Part shown: positions 7,226-60,458 of the stretch, piece after piece
Layout of the letters: each line of letters starts with the position of its first letter
How positions within the stretch are numbered: the stretch's first letter is position 1
Assembly: GCF_008831285.2 (NCBI RefSeq)
Contig: NC_045144.1
Coordinates: 8,717,886-8,781,885, forward strand
Origin: Nymphaea colorata
Taxonomy: Eukaryota; Streptophyta; Magnoliopsida; Nymphaeales; Nymphaeaceae
Reading direction: 5' to 3'
Length of the DNA stretch: 64,000 bases
Made by a program: the position numbers and the translations under genes
Notes under the pieces: generated by a model
Told to the model about the DNA's origin: nothing
Seen by the model: only the letters and a program-made list of their open reading frames with translations
The model's database searches: none

Positions 7226-7434
7226 TATTAGTTATTAATATTTATATAGTGGACCCTCTTTTTGTAAATAGTTTAGGGTAGTCGAATTTAAGTGTTATTT
7301 TTATAGGTCTTCCTTTATTATTTCTAATTAATGTGTGGACTTATTATGTAAAGTTCCTGATCGTTCCCTTATCCTAACATAGGACTAGGGCTATTGAAGA
7401 AGATTTTCATGCTCTCTCAAAATCTATCGCGACA
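7226..7434 (+). repeat. 5' LTR of the old Copia
   Basis: Begins tattagttattaatattt and ends aaatctatcgcgaca. It aligns along its length with 14248-14455, sharing blocks such as tttttataggtcttccttta, but with many substitutions and small indels, so the insertion is old. Confidence 0.8.
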
Positions 7435-7544
7435 TGCTATCAGAGCGACGGATAACTCTCAAACCTGATAATCTTGGAAAAGATATGCAGAACTTTGTTA
7501 CTGCCATGTCTCCAGTGCCTATTCCATTAAATGATCAGCAATGT

Positions 7545-8175
7545 CTTCTTGATCCCAAGTGACACCAGGCCATGCAAGAAGAAATGGATACATTGCTTTC
7601 TCGAGGGACTTGGGATTTAATTGATCTTCCTTCTGGAATGACATCGTGGGCTCTAAGTGGGTGTTCTCAATCCAATGGCAATTTGATGGGTCAATAGAAT
7701 GGTACACGCAGGTCTATGGGGTCTCCTTCTTTGAGACCTCTTTTGCTGCCAAAGTAGGTACTATTCAGCTTGTTATTTCGGTGGCAGTTCATTATGGTTG
7801 GAGCATGTCTCAGATTGACGACTGACGTTAAAAATACATTTCTTTATGGAGACCTATATGAGACAATGTATATGAAGCAGCCACTAGGCTTCATGACAGG
7901 GGGAGTGTGGAAAAGTCTGAAGATTAAAGCAAGATATATATGGTTTAAAATAGAGTCCATAAGCCTGGTTCGATAAATTATTTTTCATTATGTCTGGATA
8001 CAGGTTCTAAAGATCTCCCTCAGACCATTGACTATTCTTGAAGAAGAGTTTTAAAGGGATTGATATTATGGTGGTTTATGTGGACAACATTATTCTGACA
8101 GGTGACGATGAACAAAAAATTTTGAACACAAAGGTTTATCAACAAAAACATTTTGTAACTAAAGATCTTGGACCT
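7545..8175 (+). pseudogene. Copia reverse transcriptase remnant, left part
   Basis: Reading across frames gives recognisable Copia reverse transcriptase blocks in order: AMQEEMDTLLSRGTWDLIDL, then the QIDDVKNTFLYGDLYETMY block near 7810-7880, then VVYVDNIILTGDDEQ near 8070-8115, corresponding to the catalytic YVDD box. Stops and frameshifts separate the blocks. The sequence stops at gacct (8171-8175), the target site of the nested element, and resumes at 13422 with DLRYFLGIE-like sequence. Confidence 0.8.
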
Positions 8176-8462
8176 TGTAGAAACACGAACCACAAGGAGA
8201 GAGCAGAGAAAGCACACACAATATATGTGGAAAACCTCAGAAAGAGGTGAAAAACCACGGGAAAGCTCTGACCTAGGGGCAAACCGCAACCCTAGGAGAG
8301 AGAAAATTATTTTCACTTAACCCAACAATTACATGTAAGTGAAGAATATATAGGAGGAAGAGAAAGAGTGCTGCCTAGGGTACCGAGCCTGCCTCGGTAT
8401 CCGTGCCCCATAGGACCGGGTCCAGATATGGATCCGGTTCCCCATTACAATATATTCTAACA
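8176..8462 (-). repeat. 3' LTR of the young Copia
   Basis: 287 bp. In element orientation it starts TGTTAGAATATATTG and ends TTTCTACA, giving the usual TG...CA ends. The stop codon of the gag-pol frame lies in its first bases (8457-8459). Confidence 0.93.
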
Positions 8463-13122: not shown

Positions 13123-13134
13123 GCTCTGATACCA
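13123..13134 (-). promoter_or_regulatory. Primer-binding site of the young Copia
   Basis: On the minus strand this reads TGGTATCAGAGC, the well-known complement of the 3' end of initiator methionine tRNA used by plant Copia elements. It begins directly after the 5' LTR. Confidence 0.9.
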
Positions 13135-13421
13135 TGTAGAAACACGAACCACAAGGAGAGAGCAGAGAAAGCACACACAATATATGTGGAAAACCTCAGA
13201 AAGAGGTGAAAAACCACGGGAAAGCTCTGACCTAGGGGCAAACCGCAACCCTAGGAGAGAGAAAATTATTTTCACTTAACCCAACAATTACATGTAAGTG
13301 AAGAATATATAGGAGGAAGAGAAAGAGTGCTGCCTAGGGTACCGAGCCTGCCTCGGTATCCGTGCCCCATAGGACCGGGTCCAGATATGGACCCGGTTCC
13401 CCATTACAATATATTCTAATA
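13135..13421 (-). repeat. 5' LTR of the young Copia
   Basis: 287 bp, matching 8176-8462 at all but two positions. One difference changes the terminal TG of the LTR to TA (plus-strand end ctaata instead of ctaaca). Confidence 0.93.
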
Positions 13422-14247: not shown

Positions 14248-14455
14248 CGTTAGTTAGTAATATTTATATAGTGGGTCTAGGATGTAAAGGATGGTAGAAG
14301 TTAAAGGGTTATTTTTATAGGTCTTCCTTTATTATTTTTAGTGTGGAGTTGTGGACTTTTTATGTAAAGTTCCTGATCCTTTCTTTGTCCTATATTAACA
14401 TAGGACTAGGGTTATTGAATAAGATGTTCACGCTCTCTCAAAATCTATCGCGACA
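14248..14455 (+). repeat. 3' LTR of the old Copia
   Basis: Begins cgttagttagtaatattt and ends ctatcgcgaca. It pairs with 7226-7434 but is considerably diverged. It is followed by tttac, one base different from cttac before the left LTR. Confidence 0.8.
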
Positions 14456-14859
14456 TTTACCATATCATAAAAATGCAGACCAGAATAGAAAAGGTAACAA
14501 GCTAAGTCGCTTGTGTGTGTGACTTTGGCGCCCGCACATGCATCGATACGACATGTGTGTGTGTGTGTGCATGATAAGGCTGGGCATCGGGCCAGGCCGC
14601 CGGCGGGCCGGCCCAGCCCGGTATGGGCCGGGAAAATCCCAGCCCGGGCCTGGTATGGGCTGGGTTTGGGCCGGGAAAATCCCGGCCCGGGCCCGACAAG
14701 CCAGCCTGGCAGTCGGGCCGGATAGGCCGGCCCGGTCGGCCCGACTACCGGGCTCCCTCCGACCCTCCCCCTTCTCCCCTTCCTGTCTCCCTTCCTCTTC
14801 CCGTCTCTCCTTCCCCCTTCCCGTCTCCCTCCCCTTCCCCTTCCCAGTTCCCCCTTTCG

Positions 14860-15042
14860 AAGGATTCGTGGGACGGCGATTGCTCTCTCCATGATCTCCC
14901 CATCCCCATCATCCCTATCCTTGGAACTCTTCTCGGATTGTTGCCGCTTCCCCGAATTCACACTCCCACCCTTCGTGGATGCCTTATGCAATCCAGGGTT
15001 CTCAACGGTTTGCTCTAAGTAATCATACTCATCAAAATCCAT
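14860..15042 (-). pseudogene. Captured N-terminal fragment, RBM39/CC1-like splicing factor
   Basis: On the minus strand an ATG at 15042 opens a frame beginning MDFDEYDYLEQTVENPG, followed by a lysine, serine and acidic-rich stretch (EKSSKDRDDGDGE). From memory this start resembles the N-terminus of plant RBM39/CC1-like splicing factors. Only about 60 codons fit that pattern; no RNA-recognition motif follows, and the sequence then enters the CT-rich and GGGCC-rich part of the transposon. It is therefore a captured first-exon fragment, not a gene. The match is by eye, so the donor gene is tentative. Confidence 0.5.
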
Positions 15043-15289
15043 CAACCAACAAAGAAACAGAAGAAAAGGGAAAGCTCGTAGACGGAAACCCTCTTTCCGG
15101 CCTGGCAAATAATGGAAACAGAAAGAGAGTCCGTTAAAGAGCTCGTAGACGGAAACCCTCTTTCCGGCCTGGCACACACACACCTTAGCTCCTTATGGGC
15201 GTGTCAGTGCCCCGTGGGGCGCAAGCAACAGACTGAGAGGATGAAGGAAAGGAGCAGATGGTGGATAGTCCACCTCCTAGATTGCGGTT

Positions 15290-15500
15290 GCTGCGCTTCA
15301 CTTCCCGATACTTCCGACGTCCACTCTTCCCGAACGACTGACTGAACCCATCGCGGCAGGTCGACGCCGCCTTCCTCCGGCAGGGCAGCCGGTGACTTCC
15401 TCCGGTGCGCGGTATCCGGTCGGTCGAGCCGCGACGGCTGGCGAGGCGAGGCTGGCAAGGCCGAAGTCCACGATGCAGGCGTTGCTGGAGCGGTCGAGGT
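15290..15500 (-). pseudogene. Captured fragment of a receptor-like kinase C-lobe
   Basis: On the minus strand one frame reads VDFGLASLASPAVAARPTGY then RAPE, the activation segment from DFG to APE. A second frame a little downstream reads GGVDLPRWVQSVVREEWTSE, a signature of the C-terminal part of plant leucine-rich-repeat receptor-like kinases. The segment normally between them (the D-x-W/Y-SFG region) is missing and the frame has shifted, so the piece is deleted as well as truncated. It contains no catalytic loop and cannot make a kinase. Confidence 0.75.
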
Positions 15501-15695
15501 CGGCGGGCAAGAGGAGGGAGGTCGTCGGGCCGGGCCTAATTTTTGGTGGCCAGGCCTGGTACCCGGCCCGGCTCGGCCCGATAACCGGCCCGGCCCGACA
15601 ATATTATCGGGCCGGGCCTGGGCTGGGCTGGCAGGCCCGACGGGCCGGATTGGGCCGGCCCGGCCCGATACCCGATACCCACCCTTGGTGCATGA

Positions 15696-16739: not shown

Positions 16740-16983
16740 CTTCCAGGCCCGGGCAACGGGCCAGACCGGTTAAAATAAAAAATAAAATTTTAAATATAAA
16801 ATAAATTTTTAAATATAAAATATATTTTTAATAGTAAAATATATATCATTATTAAAATAAAAATAATATTAAAAAAAAATACCGGGCTGAATTGGGCCCT
16901 GCGGGCCAACCCGGGCCGGCCCGGTCTGGTTTTTTCAGGCCGAAACCCGGGCTCGATCGGGCCAGGTACCGGGTACCTGTAAG
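16740..16983. mobile_element. Small GGGCC-ended element with AT-rich core
   Basis: About 244 bp with inverted ends, CTTCCAGGCCCGGG on the left and CTTACAGGTACCCGG read inward from the right. Subterminal GGGCCGG words resemble 14575-15687, and the core is almost purely A and T (16773-16880). The 8-bp flanks are poorly matched, so the boundaries are approximate. Confidence 0.4.
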
Positions 16984-18298: not shown

Positions 18299-21100
18299 AT
18301 GCCAGAAATAATAGACCTTGATGAGCACTCGTCACTCTTTGGTGCTCCCCTCTCTCGTCTACACCTGCAAGAGGATGAAGAGATTGAAGAAGGTGAAAAC
18401 AAAGAATTTGAAGGAGGAGAAGATGAGGAGGAAGAAGAACAAGAAAGTGATCTTCCTGTTACTTTAGGTTTTGTGGAGAAGCCGAAGAACCCAATCTCTC
18501 TTCTCCGCCAATTCTTCCCATGCAAGGCTGGGGGTGCTCCGGTGAGGCTTGCTACTATGCCTGGCATTTAGTATTGCTTTTCTTGTTTTACAGAATTATT
18601 GAGGTTTTTTGTTGCTTTATGTGCTGTCAGGCATGGTTGGATCCAATTAATTTACCATATGGGAATGCTACTCTTTGTGGCTTCTGTGGGGTGCCTCTTC
18701 AGTTTTTGATTCAGGTAGTAGGCTCCATAACTTTAATTTTGGAGATTGGGGTTTTGATTTCTAATTTGTTGGCAAGTTTATATTTTCTTCAACTTTGGGA
18801 TGGAGCCGTGAAATTTGGACTGTTTTGGCAAGGTTTATGCTCCAATTTCAGAGAAAGAATCGACCTTTCATCGGTCTTTATTCGTGTTCATGTGCACTTC
18901 CATGGAGTGCCTTAGGAAAGACCAGGCTACGCAAAGAAGAGGGGAGGTTGGAGTACAATCACGAAGGTGCAGTGTTTGTTTTTCTCAATTTCCTTTGAGT
19001 GTTTGCTGTGTTCTTGTTTTGTTTGTAGTCATGTATAGATAATTTCTGAGTTTAAGATTTTGACAAGTGCATGTTTTAGAAGTGTGAAGGTTTTTCGATG
19101 CCAACTACCACGGGCAAATCCCTTCTACTCCAATGAACCACCAAGATATGATGGCAAAGATGCACCACTTAGTGGTGGAGGTACTTTTAAGTTTCAGTTC
19201 ATTTGTTAACAGTCCCTGATTGGATGACTTCCATCTTGTACATATTATGTGAACTGATAAGTATGAAGGTCTAACTGTGCTATCGCTTTCATATTGCTAT
19301 CAAACTACTAAAATTTTTATCACGTTTTCAAACATTAGGAAGCTCTTTATGATGTATGTTGTTTGGCTGAACATGTTACTGGATTCCTCCTATGGTGACA
19401 TAGTTCTTTGATTCAATGAAGAGATCAACACATAATTTGTCATATTTAAACCCTTCATTATTTTTCTCCCAGCTCTGATTTTGTCTGATTTTAGTGTTAT
19501 TTCTTGCAAATTTTTGTTCCAGCTGCACTTTGTTATTGGTGTACAACATGGAAAGGAGAGAAGATTTGTGGCTCTTGTAGAAAAGCACGCTATTGCTCTG
19601 AAAAGCATCAGGTTACTATTATTATTACTGCGGTTATTATTCTCTCCTTTTCTTTTCGGTGTGTTTTTGATTCAACTGCCATTCATGAAGTTCCAACATA
19701 AATTCATTTGCTCTGTTGTGAAGGTTTTGCATTGGCGTGCTGGACACAAAATTGAATGCCGTCAGATAAGCACTGCTTCACAAGCTTCTCATCCTGCTGG
19801 TGCACAAGCCAAGCTTTCTCCACGAATTCCTAATGAAGGTCAGTTGACTAACTTATCTGATTAGATAAGGTGTGATGAAATCTTTGGACACTAATAAAAT
19901 TCTTTTTTGTTTCAGCTGCTAATTCTTCCTTATGGGAAGAATATGAAATTGTCAATGATGATGAATCCACATATGATGAAGTGGATAAAAAGGAGGAAAA
20001 CTACGAGTCTTCATTGGTTACAATAGGCAATACAACTGAACATCTAACGTCATTGTTGGACAAGTTTGAGGTATGGCTTCATGAATCAATCAAACAGGAA
20101 TCATTGCAGGAGCACTTTTGAACAACTATAAGGGTGAATTGGAACCAAAATGTCATGTACTCTGTGCCACCAGGGTGCGGCAGAAATGGACCCGCACTCG
20201 CGTCGACGCGACGCGGGTGCGACCCAGATTTGCAGCCAAACTGCACTTGATCAGGAAGCTCGCACCCAAACCGAACCGGTAAGGAGAGAGGGCGGTAGGG
20301 AGAGGGAGAGAGTGCGGGAGAAAGGGACACTATTTGGGGGAAAGGGAGAGCAACGGTGAGGGGACTGAACGCGAGAGGAAGAGAGGGCGAGTGAGGAGTG
20401 CGGGAGAAAGGGACACGATTTGGGGGAAAGGGAGAGCAAGGGTGAGGGGACTGAATGCGAGAGGAAGAGAGGACGAGTGAGGAGTGCCGGAGAAAGGGAC
20501 ACGATTTGGGGGAAAAGGAGAGCAAGGGTGAGGGGGACTGAACGCGAGAGGAAGAGAGGGCGAGTGAGGAGTGTGGGAGGAAGAGAGGTGCAGACAGAGA
20601 GGGCTCGAGCGAGGGGGAAACAGATGGGAGATGGGAGAGAGAAGAAGCTAATTACCCAAATCGCCGCTGCGCCGCCGCTGCCGCCGCCGCCGCTGCCGCT
20701 GCCGCTGCCGCTGCCGCTGCCGCTGCCGCTGCCACTGCTCCTTCCTCCACCTTCTTCTTCTCTGTGTTGATGCTCACCTGTGGAATGAGAGATTGAGAGG
20801 GCAACGAAGAGGGAGATGGAGAGGAAGACGAGGAAGGGGAACCCGTCAGGCTTCCTCTTCGAGCGATAGAGTTTGGGTCTGGATTTGGATTCTGATCCAA
20901 TTCGACCTACCTAAAACCAAAATCGTTATAGGAATAACCCTCGTCAGCGGAGCGCTTCGCCCCTCCCTCCGACCCCGAACCCAACCTCCTTATTAAGAAA
21001 GAAAGGAAGGGGGAAAATTGCAATTTTGATTTTGATATTTAATATTTTTGTGGTTTATAGATAATATTGTCATATATATTATTATTTATTGTTATTATAA

Positions 21101-21139
<39 letters not shown>

Positions 21140-23950
21140 TCTTGCCGCACCGCCGCACCTAAATTTTTTAAGATGTGCCGTACTAGCACCCGCACCCACA
21201 TCCCGCATCTTGGTGACATAGCATGTACTTACTACTCCCTAGTGAATTACAAAGCCAAAAAGAAGAAACATAGATGATGCACAAGTAATGACCATCGTAA
21301 ATGAAATAGATAAAATTAATAACCGAGTGGACTGTCTGGCATTGGCTTAACCCTGTCCATGGCGTGTTATTCTCACATGAGATCCAAACTCTATTGTAAG
21401 TGTCCTGTGGATCATGAGTGTTCCCTTTCGACTAAATATTCATTTTGTACAGGGAGATGAAGATAAAAAACATTGGGCTTCTTTCCAAGAGCGCATTGCA
21501 AGGGCCCCTGACCAGGTTATAAGGTAGTGTTTTTCTTTCCCTATTACTGTTATGAACAACCAAGTTTTAAATCCAAGAGAACTTACTACTTATTTCTAGT
21601 TTATAATCTGATAGCTCGTCTGTGAGTTAATTCATTCTGAAGAAACAAATGAAAAAGAAAAAGTTATTAAAGGTATGTATCAAGAATTCTGTTTAATGGA
21701 GACTTAGTGGACTTTTGGTTATCAACAAAGGAAACTATGTCAAAAAGTGAAAGTAAGTTGTGAAAAAATGAGGTGTAGAGGCATTCTAAGTGTTTGAGAA
21801 AGAGAAGTGGAGCAGTGGGGCACATATCTAACTGTCTTCTTGTCTTTTAAATTCTTAGTTCACTTCCAAGAAGTTTTTGGCTGTAGAAGTCTCGATATCT
21901 CCAGTACATCCAGTGGCCTTCAACAATTACACCACATGACTATTTTCCCCAAACACTGCAGTCTTTTTTTGGGATCTCTTTGAGAATTCAAACATACCAA
22001 TGTTTGCTTTGTATCTGTTGAACCAGTTGGCATCTATCCATGTTAGCATCAGCAAATTTGTCTAGAAATATCTGAATGCTATTTGTCATCATGCATCATC
22101 TAATTTTTTAGTCATTGCATAATCTTTTCTTCTTGCTTAAGCTTAAATTTGCAAGACCTTCCTCTTGCAGTCTTACCCTGTTCATTCTCCATTTTTGTAA
22201 TCCATGGGTTTGTTGGCTTTGGGACCTTCCTCTTTATTTTATATACAAGAACGTGCTTCCGAACACATTGGTTGGTTTTTCCTTGCCTGCTATGCCACTT
22301 TGAAATCTGTTGTTAGGCATTGAGGCAAGGTGTTGCACAAATTCCTCTTTTTTGACCTAAATGAATCTTGACAAGATCCGTCCTTCTTGAAGTATCTGTT
22401 TTGCTATGCGGTTTCATATGACCATTTTCTAGTTCTTATTTAGTACGTCTAAATACTGGTTCATCCATTTGACTGCTTATAATGTGCTTCTTGGGTCGCT
22501 ATTCCATCATATTGCATCCTAAGTTACATGGTTCCCTCTAGCTTGGCAAACTTTTCTCTAGCACTGTAACAATCATTCTCGCACTATGCATCTATTCAGA
22601 TATGAAGATGGTACTTGGAACTAAAGCTTGAATGTCTCATTTTACAATGCTGAGTCCTGATCAGCATAAGCTCTATTTATCCTTCAACTTTATATGGGTT
22701 TTGCAGCTTATGTAGACAAGTCTTCGAGTCCCTCTTTCTTGTTATTGATTGTACCTGTTTGATTGGTTTCAGGTACTGCAGAGATGTAAAAGCAGAACCA
22801 CTGTGGCCTGGTGTTAGTGGTCAGCCCTCTAAAGCTGATGTTCCTAATTGCAGCTTTTGTCATAGTCCTCGATATTTTGAGTTCCAGGTGAGTGAATTAT
22901 TTTGTGGATCTATTCTACTTTGGAAGTACTTGAAGTTGAACACAAATGAGCATCATTTGCGTGCCTCTTTGGTAGGGCTGTTCACTACCAATTTTGAGCT
23001 GAGCTGGGCCAGCTCGAATTTGGCTCCAGTGCCAAAGCTCAACGAGCTGGGCTTGAGGTCAAGTCGAGCTTGTGGTACCAAGCTCGAGCTTAAGAAGGCT
23101 CGGACTTGTCTCAGTTAAGCTTGAGCTCAGATTTAGCTGAGCTTAGCCAAGCTGTTTATTAAAAAGTTTATTTTGTAACGCAAAGTGAACAACCAGGTAA
23201 CTCATTGTAAGACTCCTTTTACACATTTTTTTTCCACGATTTTAATTGAGTATGAGCAAGCCAAGCCTGCCTAGCTCAAGCTTAATTTGTTTATTTAAGC
23301 GAGTGTATTTCTTAACTCAAATTTGACTCGTTTATTACGAGTCAAGCTCGAGTCAAGTTTTGGCTGACCAAGTTCCAGTTGAGCTTGAGTTCTCTACTCA
23401 TTGAACCCCCCTACTTTTTGGTTTACCACAGTAAAAACTAAATAATCAATATTTGTGTTTTTTTGCTACAATCGTTTTTCTGATATTCAAGTGGAATCCA
23501 ACTCTTACGAGACCTGGGTAAAGAAAATCGCATCCAATCAGCAACCAGACTTGGATCCAGGATCCTTATAAAAATTCTTGGCAAATTTGGTGTCTGATTC
23601 TGGCAGATACCAAGTCTAATTACATATAAAACTATGGACTCGGTATTATGTATCTTTCGTTCTAACATTAAACTTATTCTCAATAGCCAATTTTTCTGGT
23701 CGCATACTAGCAACTGAAACCAAACCCGCTTCTAAGGTGAAAAATGCCTTCTTTTGTGCTCCATGGTGCATCTATCACAGGTTTCTTTTCTTTTTTGTAG
23801 GTTCTGTCACAGCTGCTTTACTATTTCCAAGTGAGCAATGACTCAGATTCTCTAGATTGGGCCACAATTGCTGTATACACCTGTGCTGCTTCTTGTGAAG
23901 CAAGCACCAGCTACTGTGAGGAGTTTGCTTGGGTTCAGTTATGTTCATAA
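18299..23950 (+). CDS. PDCD2: PDCD2 family protein, 10 exons
   Basis: Exons: 18299-18541, 18631-18714, 18833-18966, 19080-19180, 19523-19611, 19724-19838, 19916-20070, 21453-21523, 22773-22887, 23801-23950. All junctions are GT-AG and in frame, giving 418 residues, a length I would expect for plant PDCD2. Residues 1-60 are acidic; LGFVEKPKNPISLLRQFFP and CGFCGVPLQFLIQVYAP form the N-terminal PDCD2 region. A MYND zinc finger spans about residues 191-229 (CYWC, CGSC, YC, H, GHKIEC). The C-terminal PDCD2_C domain follows from about 308 (HWASFQERIARAPDQVIRYC, CSFCHSPRYFEFQ, DWATIAVYTCAASC). PDCD2/Zfrp8 proteins are dedicated chaperones for ribosomal protein uS5 in small-subunit assembly in yeast, flies and humans. 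A cytosolic/nucleolar role here is by homology. I chose ATG 18299 because it is the first in-frame ATG. Introns 7 and 9 contain transposons; the reading frame is intact. Confidence 0.93.
20311..20575. repeat. 86-bp tandem repeat, about three copies
   Basis: A GA-rich unit beginning agtgcgggagaaagggacac recurs at 20311, 20397 and 20483, and its start recurs again at 20570, giving a period of 86-87 bases. The copies differ at only a few positions, so the array expanded recently or is kept similar. Open frames on both strands here are repeat artefacts. Confidence 0.85.
20763..20900 (-). pseudogene. Possible captured first exon inside the intron 7 element
   Basis: Read on the minus strand, a serine/proline-rich frame (DQNPNPDPNSIARRGSLTGS, then poly-Ser/Pro) ends at CAG followed by gtgagc, a good splice donor, at about 20775. 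The position corresponding to a start codon is TTG, one base from ATG. After the donor comes a triplet run (20663-20740) that only encodes poly-alanine. The pattern fits the 5' end of a host gene carried by the transposon. I do not recognise the donor gene. Confidence 0.35.
22973..23413. mobile_element. hAT-like GAGCTC-rich element in PDCD2 intron 9
   Basis: 441 bp starting TAGGGCTGTTCACTAC and ending TCATTGAACCCCCCTA, flanked by ctctttgg (22965-22972) and ctttttgg (23414-23421), an 8-bp duplication with one mismatch. The interior is full of gagctcgagc/agctcgag words and is non-coding. It belongs to the same family as 268-685. It sits about 85 bases after exon 9 and does not touch the splice sites. 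Confidence 0.8.
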
Positions 23951-57236: not shown

Positions 57237-58014
57237 AAGACCCCTTAGAGGTCGTTTGATTGCACTGGAACACTGTGGAATAGAACAGATTCGTTCTGTT
57301 TCAACGAAATTGACGCAAATGTCAAAGAAACGATCAGGACACGCAGGACAGAGAACAAGAGGTATAAAACGCTGAAGCGTTCCAATGTGTTATGTGGAAC
57401 AACATGGCACAGCGTGTCGTGAAACGCAGACTCTCCCCCGACCCCGAGCTCTCCTTCCCCTCACCCCTCTTTCTCTCCTTCGCCCCGTCTCTGCCTACCG
57501 AGCTGCTCTTTCTCCTCCGTCTTTGCCCCTTGAGCTGCTCTTTCTCCTCTGTCTTTGCCCTTTGAGCTGCTCTTTCTCCTCCGTCTCCACCCCGAGCTGC
57601 CCCTTCTCCTCCATCTCCGTCCCTGAGCTGCTCCTTTTCCTCTGTCTCTGCCCCCGTCCGTGCCACCAATCTGCCCTAGCCCTTTCTCTCTCTCCTTCTC
57701 CTCCGTCTCCAGCCCCGAGCTACCCTTGCCCTTTCTCTTTCTCTCCTCCTCTTCGATCTCTCCCCCTTCTCTCTTCTGAGCCTCCCCCTCGCCCACTGCT
57801 CTACCCCTTTCTCCCTGTTGCTCTGTATGCACATTTCATTGAGTCTCCTCCTCGCCCACTGCCCTACCCCTTTCTCCTTGTTGCTCCATATGCACATTTC
57901 ATTGCTGCAAGGAGCTCTATTGCCATGAATAGCTTTTTCTAGGTGAGTTCTTCTCTCTTTCTCTTGTTTTCTCCCTCCCTCCCTCCCTCTATTTGTCTCT
58001 GATTTGCATAAGCA
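57237..58014. other. Possible element terminus and CT-rich block before the coiled-coil pseudogene
   Basis: ttagaggtcgtttgattgcactggaac at 57245-57272 resembles the ends of plant DNA transposons that start with ggtcgtttg. Positions 57425-57880 are a CT-rich block of degenerate repeats (gagctgctctttctcctc and similar), giving long mirrored frames on both strands (185 and 154 codons) of low complexity. I do not treat them as genes. Confidence 0.4.
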
Positions 58015-59412
58015 AAGAAAAAGCTGGTCGTTCTTGGAAGAAAGGAATAAGCTTTCAAGGGAGATTAGCAACCTTGAATTAGCTTTAGATAAGTCGATGC
58101 TGAAAATCAAAGAGCTGGAAAGTGACCTTATTGTTCCCATGGAGAAATGGGTGGAATTTCAGGGCCGTGAAGATATTACTCATCAGCGTTGCCTCGAGCT
58201 TGAAGGCCTAATCCATATCTCAAACTCCAAAGCCGAGAATGCAGAAAGAAGGGTGGCTGAACTAGAAATGCTGATGAAAGAATCAAAAGCAAAGGCGAAT
58301 GAGCTTCAAAAGCATATAGGATCCGTGGAAGAAAAGTTGCCGAGCTCAAGACAAGAATGTGAAACATATGCCTCCAAAGTTTTGGAGCTTTCAAAAGCCC
58401 TGGAATCTCTAGCAAAAGTGTCAAGCTTTGAGGTTGCTCAATCTGACACCAACAAAGCAGAGACTGAGTTGAAGGAACATTTGGCTCTGATTACAAGAGA
58501 GAAGGAGAACTTTGTGAAAAGAAAATGATGCATTTGGAATTCGAATTGAACATATCACGTTCAAGGAACTTGGAGCTAGAACAGGAGCTTCAAACGACTA
58601 CAAAAAAAAATTACTGATTACGAGAATTCTACAAACACAACTCACCAGAGGTCCCCGGAGCTGGAAGGCCTCATAAAAATGTCAAACAAAAAAGCAGACA
58701 AAGCAGAGGCAAAGTATGAAAGATCTACTTCCAAAGTCCACAAATTATCAAAAGAGCTAGAGATTTCTTTGTGTCAAGTTTGGAGTTTGCATTGCACGAA
58801 GCAAACACAAGAGAGACCATGTTGAGAGAACATTTGGCTCTGGCCTTGGAAGATAAGCAGAAAGTTCAAGACAAAATTGTGCAATTGGAGTCTGATCTAG
58901 ATCAGTCACATTCAAGGACCTTGGAGCTAGAACGAGAAGTAAAAGTCGTTAGGAAGAAAATTAGTGAACAAGAGGAGCTTGCAGTCAAGAACGAACAGAG
59001 GTGCCTGGTGCTCGAATACCAAATCCAAGTATCTGATTCAAAAGCAAAAAAGGAAGGAAAAAGGGTGGAGGGGCTTGAGCAGATAGCAAAAACTCTAGAG
59101 CAAAAGAGAAATGAACTTGAAGAACATTGCAGCTCAATGAAAACAAAGTATGTTGAGGTGGAAGAAGAGTGCTGGCAATATTCCAGCAAGACGTCTGAAG
59201 TTTCTGCAGAACTGGATGTTTCTTTAGCAAAAATACTCAACTTGGAAGTTTCTTTGAAAAATGCAAAAGAAAAGGAGATGGAGTTAATGGAAAATCGAAG
59301 GGAGCTTGTGGAGGAAAGAAGTAAGCTTTTAGATACGATGGGTCATCTTACACATACAACGAATGCTTACAAGTATATTTATAAATCAGGGATTAGCTGC
59401 TTGACTAACAAT
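58015..59412 (+). pseudogene. Frameshifted coiled-coil protein, myosin-heavy-chain-like
   Basis: Two open parts (58015-58528 and about 58771-59412) and the stretch between them encode continuous heptad-rich coiled coil rich in Glu, Lys and Leu. At least three frameshifts separate them: near 58525, in the A-run 58602-58610, and near 58775. Internal repeats are visible: HQRCLELEGLIHISNSKAEN, HQRSPELEGLIKMSNKKADK and EQRCLVLEYQIQVSDSKAKK, each followed by a similar block. The pattern reminds me of plant At1g05320-like 'myosin heavy chain-related' proteins, without a motor domain. There is no convincing start and the C-terminus is missing, so it is a decayed gene fragment. The exact donor is uncertain. 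Confidence 0.65.
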
Positions 59413-60458
59413 TAGGCTGAATAATTGAATAGTTTGACCAACTAGTCGTTGATTTGAAACACTGGTCAGTCGATAACTAACCCAATCAGTCAGCCAGATT
59501 AGTAAGCCTCGGGATCCTGACAACTAAGGTAGGACCCCAATGCCATAATGTTGCTTAGCAGCCAACCCGTTTACTGCTGCATGAAGCAACAGCTGTCTTA
59601 TATGTAAACAATATAATCTCCCTAGTTGAGTGGCCAACAAATAAATAAGACTGAAACAAACCACCATACCAGTTTCTAACCTTCTGAAAGGACAGCAACA
59701 TAAGTTATCTTATGTGTCCTCTTCTGATTCACTTGCCAGATGAATGCCACTGACTCTTAGTCTCTGGAGCTTTGGCTCCCACTCCGCAACATGCACAAGT
59801 TAACGATACAGTTTTAGCAGCATCCATAGATCCCATGGTTTCAATTCAAGATCATCAAGTGGTGGAAGGAAATAACAGCAAGTAGACAGAAAATATATGC
59901 ATTTGAGAAATTCTGGCCTGGGTAAATGAATCTTGTCAACCGATCAACAATGCCTAAGCAGCCTTTCTCCTCATTATTGCTACACCACTTATTTCCTCAA
60001 GCAAAAATTACTCAGCCCTTTTCATCGCACTGACATGCTGCAGCATTCTTTTCCTCATCTGCAGGAGATTCAGGACGTCTCAGGAATCAACCTCAAAGAA
60101 ACATGCTTAGCACATAAGAACCATACGAGAACAACAAAGTTAAGGGCTTAGAGGATTTCCGATTTTCCAGCTTTGCTCTAGCCATCTTCAAGAACTAGTT
60201 CCAAAATCACTACACCATTACCTTCTAGATGGTCTTGTCCTTCCAATAACAGGCCCACCAAGGCCTTGTTATGTTCAACCAACCATCTCCTATGCAACGG
60301 CCACATCTACTTCGAAAAAAATGTAAGTCTAAAATAACACTGATTGCGAAGTCAAATGCTCTTGTCATTATACATTTCCATTATATTCAGTTTGATTTAC
60401 TGATGCCATTGTACTAGTAATAATTTCATGCTAATTGTTTTTCTCCACTAGACAAAAA
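59413..60458. other. Intergenic, no gene seen
   Basis: No recognisable coding sequence. The small frame at 59933-60151 lacks any motif. Confidence 0.45.

Follow-up and report, generated by a model that had tools for sequence, protein, structure and literature searches.

A compact hAT-like element with putative host-gene fragments in the genome of Nymphaea colorata

Rice Pack-MULEs are non-autonomous elements that carry pieces of genes, sometimes from several loci, between Mutator ends, i.e. usually with longer terminal inverted repeats (TIRs). The element of Nymphaea colorata described here, found in a window of 64 kb (the entire stretch of DNA analysed, to which all positions refer), resembles these Pack-MULEs in being non-autonomous and in carrying what appear to be gene pieces, whereas the Mutator ends set the latter apart. 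For elements of the hAT superfamily, a preliminary description of this locus had called gene capture less documented than for Mutator and CACTA elements. Gene fragments in two Ds2 and nine Ds-l4 elements of maize were indeed termed rare for hAT elements (PMC3260210), but these cases, together with the Pack-hAT elements among Pack-TYPE transposons (PMC8903248), provide clear precedents. Since both gene capture by hAT elements and capture from multiple loci by Pack-TYPE elements have precedents, the present element would be an instance of a known process.

For maize, the Ac/Ds terminal sequence is given as C/TAGGGATGAAA, insertion of Ds-related elements into repetitive DNA is reported as common (375 of 903 in a table) and replication errors during repair of the excision break are raised as a suggestion (PMC3260210). 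Like maize Ds2 and Ds-l4, our element is non-autonomous and shows an 8-bp target site duplication (TSD), C or T as the first base and a filler of a kind that is sometimes genic, and its length of 1113 bp is similar to the modal length of about 1 kb given for Ds-l4; unlike these elements, it has YAAGGSTGGGYATCGGG rather than C/TAGGGATGAAA at its ends and carries GGGCC arrays (PMC3260210). With Pack-hAT and other Pack-TYPE elements, for which a survey of maize and rice states that all annotated hAT elements have 8-nt TSDs, it shares hAT-type TIRs, the TSD length and host coding DNA, which is putative here; that set was defined by a genome-wide search and matches to coding sequences, whereas the putative coding pieces here were recognized by motifs and, for one of them, by a comparison with BAK1 (PMC8903248). 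Animal Pack-TIRs, including Pack-hAT-N8_XT, are likewise TIR elements with a copied filler not derived from transposons, for which gap filling by template switching has been proposed. For single-copy Pack-TIRs, breakpoints with microhomology and a filling of gaps are reported, and breaks arising within the element account for the data better than gaps left by excision; unlike our case, these elements reside in animal hosts, and their breakpoints and microhomology were measured (PMC8277862).

The element proper spans 14575-15687 (table 1) and has a G+C content of 63%, against 39% across the window; the interval 14567..15695 given in the preliminary description is correct if the flanking duplication is counted in. 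On the plus strand, GTGCATGA occurs at two sites only in the window, which are the two flanks of the element; the reverse complement of this word is present at two further sites, 29109 and 34392. The TIRs, TAAGGCTGGGCATCGGG and CAAGGGTGGGTATCGGG, which begin with TAAGG and CAAGG, respectively, are identical at 14 of 17 positions and lead into GGGCC/GGCCC arrays; inward of these 17 bp, a local alignment of about 105 columns shows a gapped, repeat-driven similarity between the ends. A two-end pattern with up to three mismatches matched the two outer sites only in the whole 64-kb window and, because this pattern was derived from these very ends, its informative part is the absence of further sites.

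How readily such a configuration arises by chance was assessed by scoring all direct 8-mer pairs 100-3000 bp apart for inverted ends directly inside of them, leaving out words made up of only one or two kinds of letter. Among the 4623 pairs scored in the window, an inverted match of at least 14 of 17 was seen in the pair of this element only. The same level was reached in none of 30 simulated windows (first-order Markov chains per 500-bp block), with the simulated counts further confined to left ends that contain all four letters, as the real one does, and a pair at 13 appeared in three of these windows. The earlier claim that a perfect 8-bp duplication and inverted GGGCC-rich ends bound a 1.1-kb element has thus held up. 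The runner-up in the window, 20154-21229, combines a perfect 8-bp CATGTACT with inverted ends matching at 13 of 17 positions and may be a chance product, since 13s also arose in the simulations. Inside of it lies a tandem array with an 86-bp unit (20310-20568).

Table 1. Features of the element and its flanks (positions in the window; a dot denotes no strand).
Feature	Position	Strand	Basis or remark
Left target site duplication GTGCATGA	14567..14574	.	exact
Left terminal inverted repeat TAAGGCTGGGCATCGGG	14575..14591	+	
Left subterminal GGGCC/GGCCC array, 12 words	14589..14742	.	
Low-complexity pyrimidine-rich tract (C/T on plus strand)	14763..14856	.	
Peptide MDFDEYDYLEQTVENP...	14899..15042	-	presumed RBM39/CC1-like N-terminus; lower end is a chosen cut
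Sequence 5' of the ATG at 15042, with 35-bp duplication	15043..15174	-	putative 5' UTR
Filler	15175..15304	.	
Second kinase-like piece EEGGVDLPRWVQSVVREEWTSEV	15309..15377	-	presumed; frame at shuffle level against BAK1 and BRI1
First kinase piece, putative activation loop ...LDRSSNACIVDFGLASLASPAVAARPTGYRAPE	15400..15525	-	BAK1 alignment over about 15498-15400, remainder by eye
Right subterminal GGGCC/GGCCC array, 13 words	15527..15666	.	
Right terminal inverted repeat CAAGGGTGGGTATCGGG (reverse-complemented)	15671..15687	-	
Right target site duplication GTGCATGA	15688..15695	.	exact

In total, the element contains 25 GGGCC/GGCCC words, whereas 300 dinucleotide shuffles of its sequence had 11.7 on average and never more than 22. 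Another patch rich in these words, with an A/T-rich middle, is located at about 16741-16978, some 1 kb rightward of the element, and is perhaps a decayed relative from the same hAT-like group. Boundaries for this patch as a second element were rejected, as the sole end pair that passed in the range tried had a TSD matching at 6 of 8 and TIRs matching at 8 of 14 positions.

The longest reading frame fully within the element comprises 146 codons from stop to stop (14578-15018), and two longer minus-strand frames extend past its borders, one of 254 codons (15192-14428) and one of 181 codons (15749-15204). Judged by length, none of these is transposase-sized, in agreement with the earlier statement that the element has no transposase; for comparison, the Ac protein is 807 residues long (PMC3260210). 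The presumably captured start codon at 15042 opens a minus-strand frame of 204 codons, which crosses the left GGGCC array and ends outside the element, at 14428. Most likely, the captured pieces are non-functional passengers. If transcribed, the frame from 15042 could yield a new chimeric protein, and a plus-strand transcript, being antisense to the pieces from both donors, might reduce expression of the two donor genes via small RNAs, but we regard such consequences as highly improbable.

Searches with the peptides encoded by the element gave little. Pfam returned no family for four of them up to an E-value of 10, with filters that discard most weak matches, and in sequence searches of the PDB one irrelevant match at E 0.76 and two at E 1.8 were obtained and otherwise none up to E 10. 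The four peptide strings did not occur in the literature text searched. Within the 64-kb window, there is no second copy of the element (the best match outside of it being 36 bp with E 0.059), nor did tblastn with three peptides detect a donor there (best match off their own sites, E 0.41).

The kinase-like part of the interior consists of two pieces, both within about 15525-15305 on the minus strand and in different frames. The first contains DFGLASLASPAVAARPTGYRAPE (DFG...GYRAPE) at 15468-15400 (minus strand), which has the appearance of an activation loop. When the element was shuffled 2000 times, DFG...GYxAPE never arose and DFG...APE did so in four cases, although these motifs, like the others tested in this manner, were picked post hoc from the sequence itself. 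Beyond the motif, modest support for a putative activation loop comes from a more independent comparison with two plant kinase chains of the PDB, i.e. from BAK1 and less from BRI1. The best frame of the element scores 45 against BAK1 (shuffle mean 30.8, with one of 500 shuffles as high) and 44 against BRI1 (shuffle mean 33.9, 14 of 500 as high), with the BAK1 alignment running, with gaps, through LD...DFGLA...APE. The second piece carries LPRWVQSVVREEW, with PRWVQSVVREEW at 15356-15321 on the minus strand in a frame other than that of the activation loop. The scores of its frame, 35 against BAK1 and 32 against BRI1, are at the level of the respective shuffle means, and PRWV, found in 56 of the 2000 shuffles, is on its own weak; the presumed identity of this piece is therefore suggested by position, order and motif. 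From (A/P)PE to WV, counted from the alignment rows, BRI1 and BAK1 have 42 and 45 residues, respectively, as against 49 bases in the element, so that about 26-29 codons would have been lost between the pieces, with a shift of frame. Both pieces would presumably stem from a receptor kinase of LRR class III.

On the same strand, a peptide starting with MDFDEYDYLE (15042-15013) presumably represents the N-terminus of an RBM39/CC1-like splicing factor. MDFDE did not arise in any of the 2000 shuffles; the peptide yielded weak irrelevant matches only in the PDB, and a search of viral contigs gave 54 pattern matches, none of which was confirmed. The sequence upstream of its start codon is perhaps a 5' untranslated region. 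It contains a perfect 35-bp duplication (15073-15107 and 15140-15174, copies 67 bp apart), and the stretches preceding the two copies show partial likeness only. The fragments named in the preliminary description thus stand in part: the receptor-kinase assignment is backed for the activation loop by the BAK1 comparison, but not for the second piece, which scores as shuffles do; the presumed RBM39/CC1-like piece is on the same strand, with a motif not produced by shuffling, and has no Pfam match. The ranges originally proposed for checking the two pieces (15290-15500 and 14860-15042) are to be amended to about 15525-15305 and to 15042 down to about 14899, respectively.

Overall, we consider it probable that this is a non-autonomous transposon of the hAT superfamily and of the Pack-hAT type, with a filler copied from host genes, probably via template switching. 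The hAT-like identity is surer than the copying mechanism. In the absence of a transposase frame, the hAT label is given because of the 8-bp TSD, exact on both sides, the short YARGG-type ends (14 of 17 identical), whose first bases are T and C, and the subterminal arrays; such short YARGG-type terminal repeats are a hAT trait. The Pack-type, non-autonomous hAT-like classification put forward previously is accordingly still the best reading of duplication, ends and arrays, with the reservation that the identities of the captured pieces are partly presumed. Its weak points are that the terminal repeats match at only 14 of 17 positions and that the window contains no second copy. A hAT transposase supplied in trans would have recognized the terminal repeats and the GGGCC/GGCCC arrays, and the move into the present site would have left the 8-bp duplication as its observed trace. 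At least two host genes would have contributed to the filler, one of them receptor-kinase-like and the other presumably coding for an RBM39/CC1-like splicing factor, and template switching into these genes would most likely have occurred during gap or break repair in a parent element. That this repair was error-prone is suggested because it would fit the loss of the middle of the kinase, the shift of frame and the 35-bp duplication.

Confidence in this overall explanation is limited because its scores do not set the second kinase-like piece apart from shuffles and because the mechanism competes with another route to the same kind of hAT-like Pack element, in which two related elements inserted nearby and their outer ends were remobilized together with the DNA between them. 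Tandem insertion followed by re-mobilization has been proposed for Pack-TYPE elements, hAT included (PMC8903248), and a GGGCC-rich patch does lie about 1 kb away (about 16741-16978). This patch, however, has no accepted boundaries, the two-end pattern (up to three mismatches) is found at the two outer sites only, and template switching accounts more simply for two short pieces and a 35-bp duplication, which makes remobilization a rather unlikely competitor.

That the interior is not genic at all, with the peptides being chance readings of GC-rich, low-complexity DNA in a hAT-like element, appears improbable. Pfam gave no family and the PDB nothing relevant, the BRI1 score was matched in 14 of 500 shuffles, the second kinase-like piece is at shuffle level and the RBM39 likeness is presumed; yet DFG...GYxAPE and MDFDE, post hoc motifs as they are, were each absent from 2000 shuffles, the BAK1 score was reached in a single one of 500, and both kinase-like pieces are in the correct order on one strand. 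Mutator-like, P and Merlin elements also generate target duplications near 8 bp. Taken alone, the TSD length would be compatible with an origin in one of these superfamilies, as would the gapped, repeat-driven similarity of the ends over about 105 columns. The short YARGG-type ends with T or C as the first base, as in Ac/Ds, argue against it, and assignment to another superfamily seems quite improbable. Mutator-like elements usually have TSDs of 9 bp (8-11) and long TIRs; here, an 8-bp TSD adjoins a clear TIR of about 17 bp, followed by repeat-driven inverted similarity only. The template-switched Pack-hAT element that we favour would be valuable as a compact, well-bounded case of hAT-like gene-fragment capture in which a mere 1.1 kb appears to combine two donors. 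Such an element would add a further case to a process described in maize, leaving the general picture unchanged, and would help to gauge how generally hAT elements with GGGCC arrays act as gene shufflers.

The content of the window is plant-like, as seen from its Copia polyprotein and TCP frames. Rfam at gathering scores and ARAGORN found no RNA family and no tRNA, respectively, in it. A TCP transcription factor is encoded on the minus strand at 42366-41200 (Pfam TCP, E 2.8e-27). Further along, a plus-strand frame (58720-59415) weakly matches Tropomyosin and DUF4472, in each case under the curated cut-off, and the frame beside it (57947-58528) has no match in Pfam. The Copia polyprotein frame (12761-8457, minus strand; RVT_2, E 2.5e-71) is accompanied by two 289-bp repeats, 8172-8460 and 13131-13419, which are 99% alike. 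This Copia is enclosed by an LTR-like direct pair (7228-7435 and 14250-14456; 79.7% identity over 217 columns), which reads as nested retrotransposons with the Copia being the younger one, and the hAT-like element starts about 110 bp past the right copy of this pair.
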